20,368 nucleotides of DNA from a virus, in the IMG/VR virus record IMGVR_UViG_3300034092_002134, positions 1-20,368 of that record; one strand, 5' to 3'. The translations under genes and the position numbers were made by a program. Numbering within the stretch: position 1 is the first letter of the stretch; each line of letters starts with the position of its first letter. Positions 8,439-20,100 of the stretch are shown piece after piece. Below the pieces are notes generated by a model. The model did not search any database and was not told the origin of the DNA. It saw nothing but the letters and a program-made list of their open reading frames with translations.

Positions 8439-8924
8439 TTACAGTGCGTACTCGGCAACCCGAGAACGGCCCTTGCGGACCATCGTCGTTTTCCCGTCGT
8501 AGCTTTTCAGAATCGAGGATTCATCCAGCACGATGCCGGTGAACTCGGACGGGTCGAAATGCTGCAACATCTCGTAGTTCGTGATGTTGATACCGTCACG
8601 CACATGTGATTGATCGCGGCAATGCGTAACGCTAATGCCGAATTTTTGGCCCTCTCTCACGGTTTGCGCGGCGACGGCCAGCGGCGCCAGAATCAGCACG
8701 CGGCCAGGAATGTGCCGCGCCCATTCGAGCTGCATCAGGGTTTTGCCCAGTCCGCAGTCCGCGAAAATGGCAGCCCTGCCACGCCGAAGCGCCCACGCTA
8801 CGATGTCACGCTGGAACTCGAACAGCGCAGCATTCATCGGCGGCACGCTGGCCAGCCCGCAGGCCGGTGCGCTGATGCGCTTGCGATCTAAAAATTCCTT
8901 ATAACCATTCATTTCGCCCCCCAT
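8439..8924 (-). CDS. Truncated DEAD/DEAH-type helicase, N-terminal domain only
   Basis: 161 residues from ATG 8924 (GGAGGG 8 nt upstream). ATG 8912 matches the usual family start MNGYKEFL and is a close second. Sequence: LFEFQRDIVAWALRRGRAAI (Q motif region), Walker A FADCGLGKTLMQLEWA (about 54-69), LILAPLAVAAQT (motif Ia), then ITNYEMLQHFDP and IVLDESSILKSYDGKTT (Walker B DESS). Family members I recall are about 450 residues with a second RecA domain. Here the frame stops 14 residues after the DESS strand and the next gene begins 15 nt later. The second RecA domain, including the SAT motif, is missing. It is probably a deletion remnant, though a single-domain ATP-binding protein is possible. 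Confidence 0.75.
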   Translation of the reverse strand: MGGEMNGYKEFLDRKRISAPACGLASVPPMNAALFEFQRDIVAWALRRGRAAIFADCGLGKTLMQLEWARHIPGRVLILAPLAVAAQTVREGQKFGISVTHCRDQSHVRDGINITNYEMLQHFDPSEFTGIVLDESSILKSYDGKTTMVRKGRSRVAEYAL

Positions 8925-12145: not shown

Positions 12146-12340
12146 ATGGGCTGGTGGCTGCTCTTGGCTTGGCTGGATGGCGGCGTGCCGACGAGCACGA
12201 TGGTGTTTACCGGGATCGACGAGCAGCGCTGTCTGGCCGTCGTGCGCGAGCACCTGGAGGCGCAGGAGGCGCGGCCTGACCGCTACGTCGAGGCATTGTA
12301 TGTCGGCTGCGTTCAAGGCAGCCGGCCGAGGAGGATGTGA
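12146..12340 (+). CDS. Small protein of unknown function upstream of the methyltransferase
   Basis: 64 residues from ATG 12146 with AGGAGGTG about 7 nt upstream. It begins with a hydrophobic, Trp-rich stretch (MGWWLLLAWLDGGVP), too short for a clear membrane helix, then a mixed helical part (EQRCLAVVREHLEAQEARPD). Its stop shares a base with the methyltransferase ATG (TGATG at 12338). I do not recognise it. Because it is coupled to the methylase it may be its partner or a small regulator, unproven. Confidence 0.55.
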   Translation: MGWWLLLAWLDGGVPTSTMVFTGIDEQRCLAVVREHLEAQEARPDRYVEALYVGCVQGSRPRRM

Positions 12341-13698
12341 TGCGCTACCTATCGGTGTGCAGCGGCATCGAGGCCGCCACGGTTGCGTGGCATCCGTTGG
12401 GATGGGAGCCGGTCGCATTCAGTGAAGTGGACGCTTTCCCCAGCGCTGCCCTCGCACACCATTACCCCACGGTGCCAAACCTGGGCGATATGACTCAATT
12501 TCAGGAGTGGCCTGATGCAAATGTCGATGTTCTCGTCGGAGGAACCCCCTGCCAATCTTTCAGCGTCGCAGGACTCCGGAAGGGACTTCATGACCCGCGT
12601 GGCAACCTCATGCTTACCTTTGGCGCAATTGCTCAACGCTATCGCCCCCAGTGGCTGGTTTGGGAGAACGTCCCCGGCGTCCTGTCGAGTAACAAAGGAC
12701 GGGACTTTGGCGCCTTCCTCGGGATGCTGGGCGAACTCGGGTATGGGTTCGCCTACCGAGTTCTTGACGCTCAGTACTTCGGACTGGCCCAGCGACGCCG
12801 CCGTGTGTTCGTTGTCGGATGTCTTGGAGACTGGCGACGTGCCGCAGCGGTTCTTTTTGAGCGCGAAAGCCTGCGAGGGAATCCTCCGCCGCGCCGGGAA
12901 ACGTGGCAAAAGCCTGCCCCGACCATTGCAGGATGCGCTAACGGCGGTGGCGCAAACGGACCCGGGCGCGACGTTGACAGCGTAGAAAGTCTGGTCTGCA
13001 TTTCGAGCGGCCAGGCAAACGCGGAGATCGCTGTCGAGCGCAGCCCGGCACTGACATGCTTGCACGAAGCGCCCATCGTCGCCCACGCCCTCCGCGGCGA
13101 AGGCTTCGACGCCAGCGAGGACGGCACTGGGCGAGGAACGCCACTGGTGCCGGTGATCCAACCATTCACGCTGGCAATCCGTGGCCGTGGCGACACGCAC
13201 AACCTGGAGTACCGGCAGGATGGCACCGCTAACGCGCTGCTAACGCCGAATGGCGGCCGAGGAGGTATCGGCGTAGGAGCCGTCGCTCACGCCTTCGACG
13301 CCCGCCAGTCCGATGTCATTCAGTACGGCGACAAGAGCGGCCCGCTGGATACCGATGGGCATTTGGTGGCGGTGGCGTTCGCCCAGAACCAGCGCGACGA
13401 GGTCCGCACGATGGACGTGGTCGGCGCGTTGGCGGCAAAGCCGGGTGCGAAACAGCAAACGTATTTGCAGCATGCCATGCACGTCCGCCGCTTGACGCCT
13501 CTCGAATGTGAGCGACTGCAGGGGTTTCCGGACAACTACACGCTGATTCCCTACCGCAACAAGCAGCGCGAGCAGTGCCCGGACGGCCCAAGGTACAAGG
13601 CGCTGGGTAATTCAATGGCGGTGCCGGTCATGCGGTGGATCGGTGAGCGCATCGCAATGGTTGAGCATATCGTGAACGGAGGATCCGATGCCCGATAA
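12340..13698 (+). CDS. Solitary C5-cytosine DNA methyltransferase
   Basis: 452 residues from ATG 12340 (GAGGAGG just upstream, TGATG overlap). Adds a methyl group to C5 of cytosine in a specific sequence. Motifs: I LSVCSGIEAATVAW (4-17), IV GGTPCQSFSVAG with the catalytic Cys71, VI WENVPG (108-113), VIII QRRRRVFVVG (151-160), IX-like RRLTPLECERLQGFPDNY and X YKALGNSMAVPVM near the end. The stretch between VIII and IX, about 235 residues, is the target-recognition region, long for this family. No restriction enzyme is nearby, so it is probably a phage self-protection methylase. The target sequence cannot be read. Confidence 0.95.
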   Translation: MRYLSVCSGIEAATVAWHPLGWEPVAFSEVDAFPSAALAHHYPTVPNLGDMTQFQEWPDANVDVLVGGTPCQSFSVAGLRKGLHDPRGNLMLTFGAIAQRYRPQWLVWENVPGVLSSNKGRDFGAFLGMLGELGYGFAYRVLDAQYFGLAQRRRRVFVVGCLGDWRRAAAVLFERESLRGNPPPRRETWQKPAPTIAGCANGGGANGPGRDVDSVESLVCISSGQANAEIAVERSPALTCLHEAPIVAHALRGEGFDASEDGTGRGTPLVPVIQPFTLAIRGRGDTHNLEYRQDGTANALLTPNGGRGGIGVGAVAHAFDARQSDVIQYGDKSGPLDTDGHLVAVAFAQNQRDEVRTMDVVGALAAKPGAKQQTYLQHAMHVRRLTPLECERLQGFPDNYTLIPYRNKQREQCPDGPRYKALGNSMAVPVMRWIGERIAMVEHIVNGGSDAR

Positions 13699-15326: not shown

Positions 15327-15663
15327 GGCACAAAGAAAAAAACTTCAGGCGCTTGACGCCGTTCTCTACAACCGCCCTCCCGGCGCTGACATCCTCAACA
15401 CTGCAATTGAAACAATACACAGGCTTCGCGCTCGAATAGAAAGGATGCAGCCGCGGATTGAAGGCGCAGACGAAGAACGAGAGAAATTCAGGACGCTTCA
15501 AGCGGCGGCGTTCTATTTTGCACACTGCCCGCAGTGCGGTTGCGCGGAGACGTGCGCGGACGGCTGCACGTTTGCGCTCGACGCGCCGAACGACCATCAG
15601 CACATGCTGCTGTTGCGCTCTGCGCTTTGCGTTGCGTGGGCATCTTACCGAACTCCAAAATGA
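15319..15663 (+). CDS. Small protein with a cysteine-rich zinc-like motif
   Basis: 114 residues from ATG 15319 (8-nt overlap with the preceding gene; the longer frame from 15265 lies over the repeat). N-terminal helices (LNTAIETIHRLRARIERMQP), then HCPQCGCAETCADGC at about 75-89, a dense Cys cluster likely to bind metal, then HMLLLRSALCVAWASY. Its stop overlaps the excisionase start (ATGA). Family not recognised. Confidence 0.6.
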   Translation: MSEAQRKKLQALDAVLYNRPPGADILNTAIETIHRLRARIERMQPRIEGADEEREKFRTLQAAAFYFAHCPQCGCAETCADGCTFALDAPNDHQHMLLLRSALCVAWASYRTPK

Positions 15664-15956
15664 CAGACGCCCCGCACATCCTCGGCAAGGACTACCTCAC
15701 CCGCGAGGAGGCCGCCTTCTACGCCTGCATGAGCCCCCGCCATTGGGACGAAATGCGGAAGCGCTACGGAATCGCCGGTATCCCGTGGGCCGGCAAAATC
15801 GTTTACCGTAAGGCGGACATCCAGCGGGCAATCGAGCAGGCATGGCAACAATCCGCCGACGCGGCGCGGCTTGGGTACTCGAATGGCGAGAGGGCGGCAC
15901 GCGCCACCGGAAGAGCCTCGGCGCCGTCACCAAGCGCGAGGCCGAGCAGCTCTTAA
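15660..15956 (+). CDS. xis: Excisionase-like protein
   Basis: 98 residues from ATG 15660 (ATGA overlap). DYLTREEAAFYACMSPRHWD (residues 11-30) followed by RKRYGIAGIPWAGKIVYRKA is the winged-helix pattern of phage excisionase/AlpA proteins, and it sits directly before the integrase. It would bend attachment-site DNA and favour excision. The last 115 nt overlap the integrase gene in another frame and encode an Ala/Arg/Ser-rich tail (GRASAPSPSARPSSS) that may be unimportant for function. Confidence 0.75.
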   Translation: MTDAPHILGKDYLTREEAAFYACMSPRHWDEMRKRYGIAGIPWAGKIVYRKADIQRAIEQAWQQSADAARLGYSNGERAARATGRASAPSPSARPSSS

Positions 15957-16906
15957 GGCTGAAGGCCGAGGAATTACAACGCGCACGCTATTCGAACGTC
16001 GTCGCTCTGCCGTCCCCGGCCAGCAGCGTCCCCACTCTTCAAGCCTACGCCGAGCAGGAATATCTGCCCTGGCGGGCCATCGAATACCCGGACACCCAAG
16101 CATCCGAAGAAGGCCGATGGCGCCGCGCCCTCATTCCCGAATTCGGCGCCCTGCAACTGGACAGAATCAGCCTGTCCCGCGTCGAGGACTGGAAAGGGCG
16201 ACGGCTGGCGCACGCGAAACCGGCCACCGTCACCAAGGAACTGCGAAGCCTGCTGGCCGCATTGAACCGGGCCGTCGTCCTGCGGCTCATCCCGTCCAAC
16301 CCGGCCCACGGCATCCGGGCGCCAAAGGACGTGCGAAGCAAGCCCCCGGAATGGTACACGGCGGACGAGCTTGAACGGCTGTACCAGCACAGCCAGCACC
16401 GCCCCGGTGATGAACGAGCAAAGGGCCTGCCCCCGAACGGATTCCCCGACTGGGCGCCCGTCTGGCGGCTGTACGCCAACACCGGCATGCGCCGCACCGA
16501 GGGACTACAGCTCAAATGGGCGCACGTCAGCCCCGAGGGCATCCGCATCCTGTCCGAACAAGGTGCCCGGACAAAGTCCGGACGTTGGCGCGTCGTGCCC
16601 CTGTCAGACGGCGCGCAGGAAGCCCTGCAAGCCCTTGAGCCGCTCACCAAGGCGTCGGGCTACGTGATTCCGCAAGTCCACCCAGACGCCCTTACAGCGG
16701 CTTTCCGGCGGCACCTCGAGCGGGCCGGACTGCCGGGGCACCTTCATTGCCTGCGGCACACCTTCTGCGCGGCGCTGGTCAGCGCGGGCGTGCCGTTGCG
16801 GACGGTGCAAGTATTGGCAGGCCATGCGTCCATCACCACCACCGAGCGCTATGCCCACCTGGCGCCGGATGCCATTCAGCACGCGGTACGGTTCCTCAAG
16901 CTGTGA
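15842..16906 (+). CDS. int: Tyrosine-family integrase
   Basis: 354 residues from ATG 15842, inside the excisionase gene. Catalyses site-specific recombination between phage and host attachment sites. An N-terminal arm-binding region (MATIRRRGAAWVLEWREGGT) is followed by a core-binding helical domain (about 65-165). Catalytic residues: Arg217 in TGMRRTE, Lys245 in RTKSGR, His302 and Arg305 in LHCLRHTF, His328 in LAGHAS, nucleophile Tyr337 in TERYAHL. It ends 64 nt before a tRNA-derived att core, as expected for an integrase that uses the tRNA-Arg gene. Confidence 0.95.
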   Translation: MATIRRRGAAWVLEWREGGTRHRKSLGAVTKREAEQLLRLKAEELQRARYSNVVALPSPASSVPTLQAYAEQEYLPWRAIEYPDTQASEEGRWRRALIPEFGALQLDRISLSRVEDWKGRRLAHAKPATVTKELRSLLAALNRAVVLRLIPSNPAHGIRAPKDVRSKPPEWYTADELERLYQHSQHRPGDERAKGLPPNGFPDWAPVWRLYANTGMRRTEGLQLKWAHVSPEGIRILSEQGARTKSGRWRVVPLSDGAQEALQALEPLTKASGYVIPQVHPDALTAAFRRHLERAGLPGHLHCLRHTFCAALVSAGVPLRTVQVLAGHASITTTERYAHLAPDAIQHAVRFLKL

Positions 16907-16924
16907 CGACGATGGGCGCATATT

Positions 16925-16931
16925 GGGCACA
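16925..16931 (+). other. Possible integrase arm site (left of the core)
   Basis: GGGCACA at 16925-16931. Related copies lie right of the core: GGGCACA at 17085-17091 and AGGCACA near 17098. Short repeats of this kind beside tRNA-derived cores are typical arm-binding sites of tyrosine integrases. Low information on its own. Confidence 0.4.
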
Positions 16932-16958
16932 GAATTCCGCAAGCGGCTGTTTTTATTT

Positions 16959-16973
16959 GGGGTAAAGCACCCC
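16959..16973. other. Hairpin overlapping the edge of the att core
   Basis: GGGGT (16959-16963), AAAGC loop, ACCCC (16969-16973). Its right arm enters the tRNA-derived core. There is no T-run, so it is unlikely to be a terminator. Confidence 0.4.
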
Positions 16974-17016
16974 TCCTAAGGGCCAGATGTAGGTTCGATT
17001 CCTACTGGCGAGGCCA
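16970..17016 (+). other. att: Attachment site core: 3' end of a tRNA-Arg(CCU)
   Basis: The stretch ends like a tRNA: anticodon loop CTCCTAA (16973-16979, anticodon CCT), 3' anticodon stem GGGCC, variable loop AGAT, T-arm GTAGG-TTCGATT-CCTAC (16989-17005), then acceptor strand TGGCGAG plus G and CCA to 17016. The 5' half of a tRNA is absent: upstream bases give only three of five anticodon-stem pairs. So it is the 47-bp tRNA identity used by the integrase, not a functional tRNA gene. Phage-like genes on both sides suggest attP rather than attR. Confidence 0.8.
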
Positions 17017-17122
17017 ATCAAATCAATAACTTCAGCAGCTTGGAAAATTGCCCCCGCAGGGACGCGCATGGGGGCGCACGAAAATGGGCACACTTTAGGC
17101 ACACCGCATGAGCAATTCCTTG
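17017..17122. other. Non-coding att arm
   Basis: The stretch between the core and the next promoter holds no gene I can support. It contains the GGGCACA-type elements at about 17085-17104 that could bind the integrase. Confidence 0.5.
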
Positions 17123-17157
17123 TTGACTCCCCTCCGCCCTTGTCCTAAGGTTAGGAC
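17123..17157 (+). promoter_or_regulatory. Promoter with a 16-bp palindromic operator
   Basis: -35 TTGACT (17123-17128), 17-bp spacer, weak -10 TAAGGT (17146-17151). The palindrome GTCCTAA-GG-TTAGGAC (17142-17157, 7-bp perfect arms) covers the -10. It lies about 47 nt before the gene at 17204. A repressor, possibly the HTH protein at 17642-17857, would block it. Confidence 0.55.
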
Positions 17158-17203
17158 ACAGCGCAGGGCATAGGGTCCGCGCCAAACGGGAGGAGACCCG
17201 ACC

Positions 17204-17437
17204 ATGATCAAAATCGACGAACTCATCGCCACCGCCCCGCTATACATCGTTTCCGGCGAGGGCGACCTCGGCACCACTGAGCTGTACACCGGCAAACGAA
17301 CTGTCCGGGCAATCAAGGCCCGGCTGACGCGCGAGCGTTGCGGTGGGGACCGATGGGCGCGCTGCGAGGCTCAGGTCGTCACCGATTGGGGCGTTGATTT
17401 TGTGACTGTGGAGGACATGAGCCATGCACACCATTGA
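17204..17437 (+). CDS. Small unknown protein, first gene of the att-side cassette
   Basis: 77 residues from ATG 17204, with GGGAGGAG 8 nt upstream. Mixed strands and helices: DELIATAPLYIVSGEGDLGT, ELYTGKRTVRAIKARLTRER, then QVVTDWGVDFVTVEDMSHAH. No motif recognised. It overlaps the next gene by 14 nt. It lies between attP and the late genes, an accessory-gene position, behind its own promoter. Confidence 0.65.
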   Translation: MIKIDELIATAPLYIVSGEGDLGTTELYTGKRTVRAIKARLTRERCGGDRWARCEAQVVTDWGVDFVTVEDMSHAHH

Positions 17438-17642
17438 GAAAGACAGCGACACCGGCCTCTGGCGCATCGAGAGCGGGCGCTATGCCTACATGGCAGCTTG
17501 CGACTTTGAGTCGCGCGCCCTTGCTCTGAAGTTCGTTCAGTTGTGCGCCGAGCATGACGAGAATCCGGAAGGGCGCCCGCGCGTGCGGATTGGCCGCAAG
17601 GCCATTGCAGATGCCCTTGGAGCGGAGTGGTGCGCTGTTTAA
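17424..17642 (+). CDS. Small unknown protein of the att-side cassette
   Basis: 72 residues from ATG 17424, with GGAGG 9 nt upstream. MHTIEKDSDTGLWRIESGRY, then ACDFESRALALKFVQLCAEH and VRIGRKAIADALGAEW. The stop TAA shares a base with the ATG of the next gene (TAATG). No known domain. Likely made with its neighbours. Confidence 0.6.
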   Translation: MHTIEKDSDTGLWRIESGRYAYMAACDFESRALALKFVQLCAEHDENPEGRPRVRIGRKAIADALGAEWCAV

Positions 17643-17857
17643 TGCACGCCCTCCTCGTAGCCTGCGGGCAGGCGCTGTACGGCCAGCAATGGCAAACAGC
17701 GCTGGCCCGTGATCTGGGCGTCAGCGACCGCACCATGCGCCGGTGGATTGCCGGCGCGCAGCCGGCGCCGGACGGGCTGACAGTCGATTTGCTGCGCCTG
17801 TGCGTTGAGCGGGCGCAGGTTTTGGATGAACTTTGCGAGCGCTTGAGGGCTTCCTAG
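17642..17857 (+). CDS. Small HTH protein, probable regulator of the att-side cassette
   Basis: 71 residues from ATG 17642 (TAATG coupling; GTG 17627 is a poorer choice). YGQQWQTALARDLGVSDRTM followed by RRWIAGAQPAPDGL is a clear helix-turn-helix like that of small Cro/C-type regulators. The rest is a helical tail (LLRLCVERAQVLDELCERLR). It could bind the palindrome at 17142-17157 and repress its own operon. Its stop TAG and the stop of the converging gene both sit in the single tetranucleotide CTAG at 17854-17857. Confidence 0.7.
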   Translation: MHALLVACGQALYGQQWQTALARDLGVSDRTMRRWIAGAQPAPDGLTVDLLRLCVERAQVLDELCERLRAS

Positions 17858-18786
17858 CGAGGCACAAAATCAGGCGGGAATCGAAGCCCGCGATTCTCCA
17901 GCGCCGCATTGACGGCTTCCGGCGTTTTGTAGATTTTCAGCAGCCTCTTGTACCAATCATTCGGCATCTCTGGCTTTCTCACCGCAATCATCAGCGGTTC
18001 GTTGTCTCCCCCGCGAATTGACGGGTCAAGCACGAACCCTTGGTATTTTTTCTTCGGGCGCTCTGCGCTTAAAAAAATGGCCCCTATATTGCGCTCCCAC
18101 GCATCATCAAATCTCGGGTCTTTTACTGTCGCCATCGACACGCCCGCTTCCGTTGTGCCGGTCATTTGGTTGTATGAATGCCCACTTGGCGCGTTTCCGT
18201 ACCGCGTTCCCTCTGTCAATCGGGGCGGCGACAACCCATTAAGACCAGACTTAAAAAAGGCACTGTCCGCCGCGTCGTAACGGCCAAAAAATTCCAGTTC
18301 CTTGGAGGGCAATTCCTCCCAGTTTATTCGCTTCCCCTTAAACCGCTTTCTGAATTCCACGCCTTTCTTGTATGCGTCCATGTATTTCGGCGGCGTAATG
18401 GCGGCTTTGACCATCGTCTTTTGCTCTGACAGCGGTTTCGTCACGTCAATGAATCGCATGGCGCCAACGCTAGGCACAAACGGCAACAATCCAGCCGCCG
18501 ACAAGGCGTAATTAGACATCTTCCGACTGGACGGGTCCGTCGCGTACATATACGCATCCGCCAACGGCCCCAGCACGTCGCCAGTAGGCCCCGGCATCAT
18601 CGCCCCGGCAGTCAGCAAACCACCCACGGTGGCGCCTTTCGGCTTTTCGGGCTCTGCCGTCAACAATCCCCCAGGCATGCCCACGGAGCCCACAGGGGCG
18701 TTATCAAACAGGGCTTGCCGCTGGATTGCCGGGTTGGGTTTGTAAGCATCCCGGCGGCGCAGGAAGTCAGCTAGAAGGTTATTCAT
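17854..18786 (-). CDS. Unknown phage protein (possible virion or injected protein)
   Basis: 310 residues from ATG 18786, overlapping the zinc-ribbon gene by 8 nt; a TTG at 18795 is the only other choice. The N-terminus (ADFLRRRDAYKPNPAIQRQA) is followed by a Gly/Pro-rich region with the repeat GGLLTA (about 42-47 and 57-62). Residues from about 140 hold a compact domain: YGNAPSGHSYNQMTGTTEAG, VSMATVKDPRFDDAWERNIG, GFVLDPSIRGGDNEPLMIAV. I do not recognise it. That region has the look of a small enzymatic domain carried at the end of phage ejection or polyvalent proteins, but no catalytic residues can be assigned. Late-gene direction and the zinc-ribbon neighbour suggest late expression. Confidence 0.65.
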   Translation of the reverse strand: MNNLLADFLRRRDAYKPNPAIQRQALFDNAPVGSVGMPGGLLTAEPEKPKGATVGGLLTAGAMMPGPTGDVLGPLADAYMYATDPSSRKMSNYALSAAGLLPFVPSVGAMRFIDVTKPLSEQKTMVKAAITPPKYMDAYKKGVEFRKRFKGKRINWEELPSKELEFFGRYDAADSAFFKSGLNGLSPPRLTEGTRYGNAPSGHSYNQMTGTTEAGVSMATVKDPRFDDAWERNIGAIFLSAERPKKKYQGFVLDPSIRGGDNEPLMIAVRKPEMPNDWYKRLLKIYKTPEAVNAALENRGLRFPPDFVPR

Positions 18787-18964
18787 CGTCCACAATCCTC
18801 AATCCAACCAAAGCCCCGCCGCAATTTATGCACTCCACCAACTGGTCGTCCCACAGTCGAAAAATGGCTGAACCGCACTCACAGGCGTACAGGCCAGCGG
18901 TGCGGGCGTTGAGCTTGTCCTGACGCTCCTTCTTCTTCGCCTCGAAGTCTATGGGCTCGCTCAT
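18779..18964 (-). CDS. Small zinc-ribbon protein
   Basis: 61 residues from ATG 18964, overlapping the metallophosphoesterase stop (ATGA). The longer frame to 19273 is a shadow of that gene. A charged helix (FEAKKKERQDKLNARTAGLY) is followed by CECGSAIFRLWDDQLVECIN ending in CGG: Cys-x-Cys ... Cys-x2-Cys, one zinc ribbon. Small zinc-ribbon proteins of this sort are common in phage genomes. Role unknown. Confidence 0.7.
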   Translation of the reverse strand: MSEPIDFEAKKKERQDKLNARTAGLYACECGSAIFRLWDDQLVECINCGGALVGLRIVDDE

Positions 18965-20100
18965 GCCGCCTTCCTCCGTAGCGCCTTCAGGAAAAGGATG
19001 CCGTCCTCCGGGTGCTCGAAGTTGTAGTGTCTGCCCGCGTCCGGGACGAACACCGAAACCACGGAAGCACCGTGGAGTTGCTGGCCGTACCCCAGTCGCT
19101 CCGCATGGTCGTCGATGGCCTTGTAACCCCTTGCCCGCAGGATGCTGTAGGTGTGCCCCCGCTCCGCGTGCTCTTCCTTGTGCAGCGCCCAGTTGTGGCG
19201 ATGTCCGCAGGCGTAGATGTCCGCCGTTTCGCCCATGTAGGCTTTGCGCTGCCCGCCGTGGGTGGGGTTCCACATCGAATGTCCGGGGAAGTCGTGCGCG
19301 GCGTGGATTTTGAACTCAGCCCCGCCGGGGCAGGCCAAAACAAACTTGGCGCCCCAGTCCTCCATGGCGATACCCGTGCCGCCAACCTCTTTTAGCCAGT
19401 CCGTCCCGACGTGTCCGCCCCAGGAATCGTGATTGCCGAACAGCCACACCAACCAGCGGATGCCTGAGTCACGCAAGAACCACTTGGCGAGCTTGCGCGC
19501 CGTCTCCACGCTGGTGTCGCTGTGGGCGTACAGGCGAATCAACCTTGAGGCGTGCGGCCAGTTGTCCAGCGTGTCGCCCAGATTGATGGAGTACACGTTG
19601 TCGGCCTTGGCCAGCTCCGCGTGCTTTTTGAGCAGCGGCCAGTCCGTGCCGTTGCTGTCCAGATGCGGGTCGCCCCACCACCAAAGGGCGAAGGGCTTGT
19701 CGTCCGGCATTTGGATGCGAAACCACTTCTTCGACGCCTTGTGCTCTGCGCGCTTTGAATAGCGCTGGCACATCAGGTCGATGATTTTTTCCGGCGCGAT
19801 GTCGTCGTCCGGGAAGTCGGGCAAGGTGGGCGCCGGGGCTGTTTCGTTTGCCACCCGGTGCTTCATCACCTCGCTGATTTTCTTCGTGGACTTGACGGGG
19901 ATATGCAGGCCGATGCCGTAGCGTTGCTGGCCACAGGTGACGTGATGCTCAATGCGCCTTCTGTCCACGCCCTGTATCCGCGCCGCCTCGGAAATAGCCG
20001 AAGGCATTTTTCCGCCAAGTTTGAATCCCCGTTTGACTGCGTCGTCCACCAGGGCAATCGTCTTTTCGACTTGTTCGCGAGTAAGGGGCTGCTGGGGCAT
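18961..20100 (-). CDS. Calcineurin-like metallophosphoesterase with N-terminal HTH-like region
   Basis: 379 residues from ATG 20100, which shares a base with the upstream stop (TAATG). Metallophosphoesterase motifs in order: GDPHLD (143-148), GDTLDN (175-180), GNHD (222-225), the His-rich HAAHDFPGHS (266-275) and GHRHN (299-303). These bind two metals and hydrolyse phosphoesters. The N-terminal 60 residues (SAISEAARIQGVDRRRIEHH) look like an HTH that might bind DNA. Phage proteins of this family can be nucleases or phosphatases, and the substrate is not predictable here. It lies between the holin-like gene and the zinc-ribbon gene in the late direction. Confidence 0.85.
   Translation of the reverse strand: MPQQPLTREQVEKTIALVDDAVKRGFKLGGKMPSAISEAARIQGVDRRRIEHHVTCGQQRYGIGLHIPVKSTKKISEVMKHRVANETAPAPTLPDFPDDDIAPEKIIDLMCQRYSKRAEHKASKKWFRIQMPDDKPFALWWWGDPHLDSNGTDWPLLKKHAELAKADNVYSINLGDTLDNWPHASRLIRLYAHSDTSVETARKLAKWFLRDSGIRWLVWLFGNHDSWGGHVGTDWLKEVGGTGIAMEDWGAKFVLACPGGAEFKIHAAHDFPGHSMWNPTHGGQRKAYMGETADIYACGHRHNWALHKEEHAERGHTYSILRARGYKAIDDHAERLGYGQQLHGASVVSVFVPDAGRHYNFEHPEDGILFLKALRRKAA

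Follow-up and report, generated by a model that had tools for sequence, protein, structure and literature searches.

Organization of the locus

What do the small genes beside the attachment site of this virus do, and when would they be read? In the stretch of DNA analyzed here (the window), a virus record of 20,368 bases, a tyrosine integrase gene is followed by attP, a short cassette of small genes and then genes on the minus strand. An initial annotation had described positions 17123–17857 as a promoter with a palindrome, two small genes without assignment and an HTH gene, and had viewed them as a candidate lysogenic conversion or defence locus. All of these components were indeed present. 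The reading that we consider probable is a counter-defence cassette of the acr-aca type, which would be repressed by its HTH protein and carry ORF A and ORF B as cargo. The genes of the locus are as follows.

15842–16906, plus strand: tyrosine integrase (Pfam PF00589, E 1.4e-25)
16970–17019, plus strand: attP core, the 3' part of a tRNA-Arg(CCT) gene (match to tRNA-Arg(CCT) genes)
17204–17437, plus strand: ORF A, cargo gene, 77 aa (ORF call; no family match)
17424–17642, plus strand: ORF B, cargo gene, 72 aa (ORF call; 90% identical copy in locus L002)
17642–17857, plus strand: HTH regulator gene, 71 aa (ATG at 17642; AF2 model; Aca/Acr fold matches)
17854–18795, minus strand: convergent flanking gene, no assigned function (homologues lie beside the cassettes in L003, L158 and L002)
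18961–20100, minus strand: flanking gene, PHROG 'DNA repair exonuclease' (kept beside the cassette in L003 and L002)

The proposed attP was confirmed by the tRNA-Arg(CCT) match at 16970–17019, which adjoins the integrase gene at 15842–16906. The cassette genes overlap: ORF B starts within ORF A, and the ATG of the HTH gene overlaps the stop codon of ORF B (TAATG). The minus-strand genes past the cassette include, besides the PHROG-annotated DNA repair exonuclease, a holin gene. A near-identity search of positions 15500–20000 against phage records gave no match. Elsewhere in the window, and judging from its own sequence, positions 12337–13698 encode a probable DNA cytosine methyltransferase, perhaps restriction-protective too, and a helicase-like ORF at 8439–8924 ends after 161 aa and appears truncated.

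The operator palindrome and its association with the HTH family

The region upstream of ORF A contains the following promoter elements.

17123–17128, plus strand: -35 element TTGACT (sequence; most sister loci have TTGAC with equal spacing to the operator)
17141–17158, plus strand: operator palindrome TGTCCTAAGGTTAGGACA, overlapping the -10 element (conserved upstream of homologous HTH genes)
17146–17151, plus strand: -10-like hexamer TAAGGT inside the operator, 17-bp spacer (sequence; TATATT or TATCTT at this place in sister loci)

A palindrome over the -10 element had been reported at 17142–17157 with a length of 16 bp. It is present, but its length is 18 bp (17141–17158), with the structure TGTCCTAA-GG-TTAGGACA and perfect 8-bp arms. 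When the window was scanned with TGTCCTANNNNTAGGACA at up to three mismatches, the palindrome was the sole match (0.23 expected by chance). The -10 hexamer of the window itself, TAAGGT, is weak.

Homologues of the HTH protein were found by protein search alone, without use of the operator, and the 1 kb upstream of each gene was scanned. With up to two mismatches, the operator occurred upstream in 53 of 70 loci, compared with 1 of 70 downstream and 2.0 in shuffled sequences; with up to one mismatch, the counts in the same loci were 44, 0 and 0. It should be noted that the list of 70 includes a few out-of-frame duplicate rows, which do not affect the contrast. Nearly all relatives with the recognition helix DRT[MV]RRW share this operator upstream. 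In the converse scan, in which the exact operator alone was used, 119 stretches were found, approximately 18 of which encode the HTH family. The operator was missing near distant HTH homologues of a Klebsiella plasmid, a Mannheimia phage and a Dinoroseobacter phage, and a text search for it across anti-CRISPR papers found nothing relevant. In locus L039 (3996–4076), TGTCCTATATTTAGGACA occurs three times, closely spaced, among CTAGGATAC-like repeats, and the HTH gene was not found in that contig.

Because operator and HTH family occur together in divergent phages, and the operator changes along with the recognition helix (see below), the HTH protein is the likely ligand of the palindrome. This association of operator and HTH family, together with the attP match, supports the initial view of a compact, self-regulated accessory cassette adjoining attP.

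A conserved two-hairpin leader RNA

Between the operator and the first start codon lies a feature that was absent from the initial annotation.

17159–17203, plus strand: 5' leader RNA with two hairpins (MFE -17.6 kcal/mol, z -1.87; covariance model R1; cross-locus covariation)
17161–17182, plus strand: leader hairpin H1, GCGC-A-GGGC / GUCC-GCGC (folding and covariation)
17187–17200, plus strand: leader hairpin H2, CGGG-AGGAGA-CCCG, whose loop contains the Shine-Dalgarno sequence (folding)

H1 and H2 are shared by most of the 67 leaders, taken from the operator to the first start codon. In H1, a small internal loop separates the outer stem from the inner one, and H2 holds the Shine-Dalgarno sequence. 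Folded one by one, 66 of the 67 leaders were more stable than their shuffles (mean z -2.06). In a first MAFFT alignment the 5' arm was one base off in several rows and RNAalifold returned no structure; per-sequence folding and an RNA covariance model were used instead. This model (R1), which was built from 17 leaders with the window left out, matched positions 17161–17206 of the window with an E-value of 0.013, as well as approximately 50 other loci. The covariation score of the leaders was 0.335, versus 0.092 for shuffled and at most 0.065 for slid alignments, with the strongest signal in H1; the alignment scored was fitted to the structure, whereas the per-sequence folds are independent of that fitting. 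No Rfam family matched the leader. Additional copies of the leader hairpins were seen within the operon, ahead of the second cargo gene, in L007 (4662–4706) and L148 (1971–2009).

Joint changes of recognition helix, operator and RNA stem

Approximately 62 loci have the helix RRW, and their operator is TGTCCTA-N4-TAGGACA or a close variant. The inner stem of H1 in these loci is mostly GGGC, GGGG or GGGA and never CGGC. In contrast, all five loci with the helix RT[MV]QRW, which may reflect only one to three events, have the operator TG[TG]C[GA]TA-N4-TACG[AT]CA as well as the H1 inner stem CGGC/GCCG. A FastTree phylogeny of the short HTH proteins implied three helix switches, with weak support. 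Since the helix, the operator and the H1 stem change together, these sequence patterns suggest that one helix may read both DNA and RNA.

Extended to the whole group, this would define a new phage regulator family in which a single helix reads both a DNA operator and, in the leader of the regulator's own mRNA, an RNA stem. Operator and leader would then serve as a portable tag on dozens of unassigned counter-defence genes, ORF A and ORF B included. We offer this broader proposal tentatively and rate its chances a little below even.

The HTH regulator resembles Aca proteins

The AF2 model of the HTH protein had a pLDDT of 93.7. In a Foldseek comparison with PDB, Aca2 structures occupied ranks 1–3 (TMq 0.71–0.74), AcrIF25 was fourth and Aca10 tenth; HigA2 was also among the matches. 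VIA-align Z values were 8.2 for AcrIF25, 7.4 for Aca2 (range 7.0–7.4), 7.3 for Aca10, 7.1 for Aca7 and 6.2 for Aca1. For helical folds of this small size such values are modest, and HTH folds of this kind resemble many different regulators. At the sequence level, Aca2 was the best match in a profile search of PDB sequences (E 0.003), and the pairwise match to Aca2 of phage ZF40 was marginal (E 0.013). Against PF08965, the Aca2 family, the protein scored 18.4 bits (cut-off 23.8), and at 71 aa it does not have the ~120-aa length with a C-terminal dimerisation domain. Full-length homology to Aca1 was not found either, the comparison with DMS3 giving only a 24-aa match to DMS3-31. Thus, the HTH protein is Aca-like and a member of neither Aca1 nor Aca2, with Aca7 and Aca10 compared by fold only. 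It is a candidate for a new Aca-type regulator family, the sequence comparison behind this assignment having covered Aca1 and Aca2.

HTH relatives were found by protein search in viral contigs, genomes, phages and plasmids. The gene is uncommon in cellular genomes (3 of 398 Pseudomonadota genomes surveyed). Distant homologues also occur in ~690 plasmid records, mostly from Klebsiella and Acinetobacter, and these plasmids are mostly conjugative. In one of the plasmid records (L220), the homologue belongs to a small-gene operon that lacks the operator; it may represent a separate branch of this type of switch.

The protein also gave a weak match to PF15943, YdaS (E 5e-4, 20.2 bits, below the curated cut-off of 30; best family member 1e-7). 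This match, the operon order and autoregulation, and the presence of HigA2 among the fold matches are all compatible with a toxin-antitoxin or YdaS-like addiction module, in which ORF A or ORF B would be the toxin and the HTH protein the antitoxin and autorepressor. However, a toxin should co-vary with its antitoxin, yet when the 86 ORFs between operator and HTH gene (1–3 per locus) were clustered, 66 of the 74 clusters were singletons beside related HTHs; these ORFs were called by a script and some are uncertain. Moreover, no toxin family was found among the 73 cargo proteins scanned. An addiction module thus appears extremely improbable.

Cargo variety across sister cassettes

The switch, i.e., operator, leader and HTH gene, was found with differing small genes in dozens of other phages. 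Most cargo proteins were without assignment, and the recognizable ones included LPD29, GP88, DnaJ-domain and hexapeptide-repeat proteins. One of the 73 proteins was AcrIE3-like. It is encoded in L158 (2277–2492) as the sole gene between the operator and leader and the HTH gene, and shows moderate similarity to DMS3-30, with 35% identity over 51 aa from residue 1, ungapped (pairwise E 2e-8, PHROG E 1.4e-4); ~0.01 matches as good as this are expected among 73 proteins. DMS3-30, which we take to be AcrIE3, is annotated as a type I-E anti-CRISPR. At the search sensitivity applied, neither viral contigs nor phage records yielded further relatives of the L158 protein.

Regarding the cargo of the window, the initial annotation was right that neither protein shows known domains: ORF A and ORF B had no significant Pfam, PHROG, NCBIfam or PADLOC match, and neither matched a known Acr or anti-defence family, although an Acr may lack recognizable homologues. 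The predicted model of ORF B was mediocre (pLDDT 72) and its comparison with PDB gave only meaningless matches. Searches for relatives of ORF B in phage or plasmid records and of ORF A in viral contigs returned none. The N-terminus of ORF A was 62% identical over 52 aligned positions to the product of a small gene of Desulfovibrio phage 7757, and therefore ORF A too has travelled.

It is possible that the cassette is a general autoregulated early operon of the phage (moron or host-takeover), with the same switch governing cargo of mixed purpose and with ORF A and ORF B not directed against defence. The DnaJ, hexapeptide-repeat, GP88 and LPD29 proteins, and the large share of cargo without assignment, fit such an operon, and so does the relative of ORF A, which lies within a run of small genes in a large Desulfovibrio phage that does not have this switch. 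However, the sole cargo of L158 is a relative of AcrIE3, and the extreme turnover of cargo and swapping of regulators are as published for acr-aca operons. We regard a general early operon as unlikely, though deserving of serious weight.

Cargo for lysogenic conversion or anti-phage defence, expressed in the lysogen, as first proposed, would account for the adjoining attP and for small genes without assigned function. The defence version found no backing in a PADLOC scan, in which none of the 73 cargo proteins matched a known defence system. The sole informative cargo homologue is an anti-CRISPR, and with the operator placed within the core promoter, repression is to be expected as the HTH protein accumulates. 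Lysogenic conversion was also left unsupported, with the comparative evidence favoring counter-defence, and we consider either version very unlikely.

Some loci contain more than one unit. On the reverse complement of L059 (IMGVR_UViG_3300046460_000148), operators lie at 2273, 4234 and 5202. They belong to three complete operator-leader units, which have differing cargo and a single HTH gene and may form a regulon of counter-defence cassettes. Because these three units have one HTH gene nearby, and L040 contains two operator-leader units, the arrangement suggests that one regulator may serve several cassettes.

Exchange of cargo and regulator at the same locus

Flanking genes are common to related phages, so that cassettes at the same locus can be compared directly. 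In L003, the HTH protein is 91% identical, the cargo is different (a 91-aa gene) and the flanks are the same. In L002, with the same flanking genes, the 90% identical copy of ORF B follows a 71-aa gene; TTGACA and CGCACTAGTGCG lie upstream, and another small HTH-like ORF is then found downstream of the ORF B copy. At a related locus in L158, the cargo is the AcrIE3-like gene described above. Re-pairing of acr and aca genes has been described (PMC9765179; PMC9410906). L002 (810–821) may also represent a second cassette type, with the palindrome CGCACTAGTGCG in the promoter spacer and the other small HTH-like gene, and thus a further candidate regulator family.

A model for the cassette

For ORF A and ORF B, we favor counter-defence, as the cargo is variable, a sister cassette contains an AcrIE3 relative, ORF B occurs with another palindrome and HTH gene, and the fold of the HTH protein is closest to Aca and Acr proteins. 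The comparative support for the cassette comprises conservation of the switch, variability of cargo, the RNA fold, the joint change of helix, operator and stem, the single AcrIE3 relative and the re-pairing of ORF B, and from it we infer repression, RNA binding, timing and, for ORF A and ORF B, a function in counter-defence. Several observations count against this reading: neither ORF A nor ORF B resembles a known Acr or anti-defence family, only 1 of 73 cargo proteins is Acr-like, DnaJ and hexapeptide-repeat cargo is unlike Acr, the sequence similarity between the HTH protein and Aca2 is weak, and so is the cassette's own -10 element.

In the counter-defence model, a strong early promoter would be read once phage DNA enters the cell. 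Its first products would be ORF A and ORF B, two small proteins with a probable role in blocking host defence (as anti-CRISPRs or similar), followed by the HTH protein. A dimer of the latter, bound to the palindrome over the -10 element, would shut the promoter, resulting in a brief burst. The leader hairpins, one of which contains the ribosome-binding site, probably provide a second brake, on translation, possibly because the HTH protein also recognizes the RNA stem, as in the case of Aca2. Cargo would be exchanged between phages while operator, leader and HTH gene stay. With a strong, autorepressed promoter, the cassette would be expected to fire in a burst upon infection and to be expressed at a low level in the lysogen, unlike a unit whose main activity is in lysogens.

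Relation to known systems

The operator, two-hairpin leader and HTH gene form a searchable signature for small genes that likely act against bacterial defences, of which ~70 different ones were collected here. In addition, the helix variants with matching changes in both targets offer a natural test of whether the HTH protein reads RNA besides DNA. To our knowledge, Aca2 is the only known case of such combined control through DNA and RNA; a 2024 Nature paper reportedly found that Aca2 controls translation.

Aca2 of Pectobacterium phage ZF40 (acrIF8-aca2) is the closest solved fold to the HTH protein, and its locus likewise has a promoter DNA repeat (GTTCGCGATTGCGAAC) and a possible leader hairpin. 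However, the operator and RNA sequences differ, and Aca2 proteins are 116–125 aa long with a C-terminal dimerisation domain (PF08965), whereas the regulator described here has 71 aa and scores below the cut-off of that family. Images of Aca2 in complex with RNA have been published (PMC11239489). The acrIE3-aca1 locus of DMS3 also has the order of an AcrIE3 homologue and then a small HTH gene, but its regulator and operator belong to another family.

More generally, acr-aca operons (Aca1–Aca12; PMC9410906, PMC9765179) share with the cassette the arrangement of 1–3 small cargo genes followed by a 60–80 aa HTH gene, an inverted repeat in the core promoter, which here is specific to the HTH family, and free re-pairing of cargo and regulator, with one sister cassette containing an AcrIE3 relative. 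They differ in that the HTH sequence is not significantly similar to Aca1 or Aca2, that most of the cargo is unassigned and that a conserved two-hairpin leader here belongs to the switch. A further parallel is the discovery of anti-defence genes in archaeal viruses guided by regulatory sequence (PMC11065993): the abstract of that work, which concerns other viruses and other regulators and does not mention such leader hairpins, describes a conserved promoter sequence common to variable early anti-defence genes.
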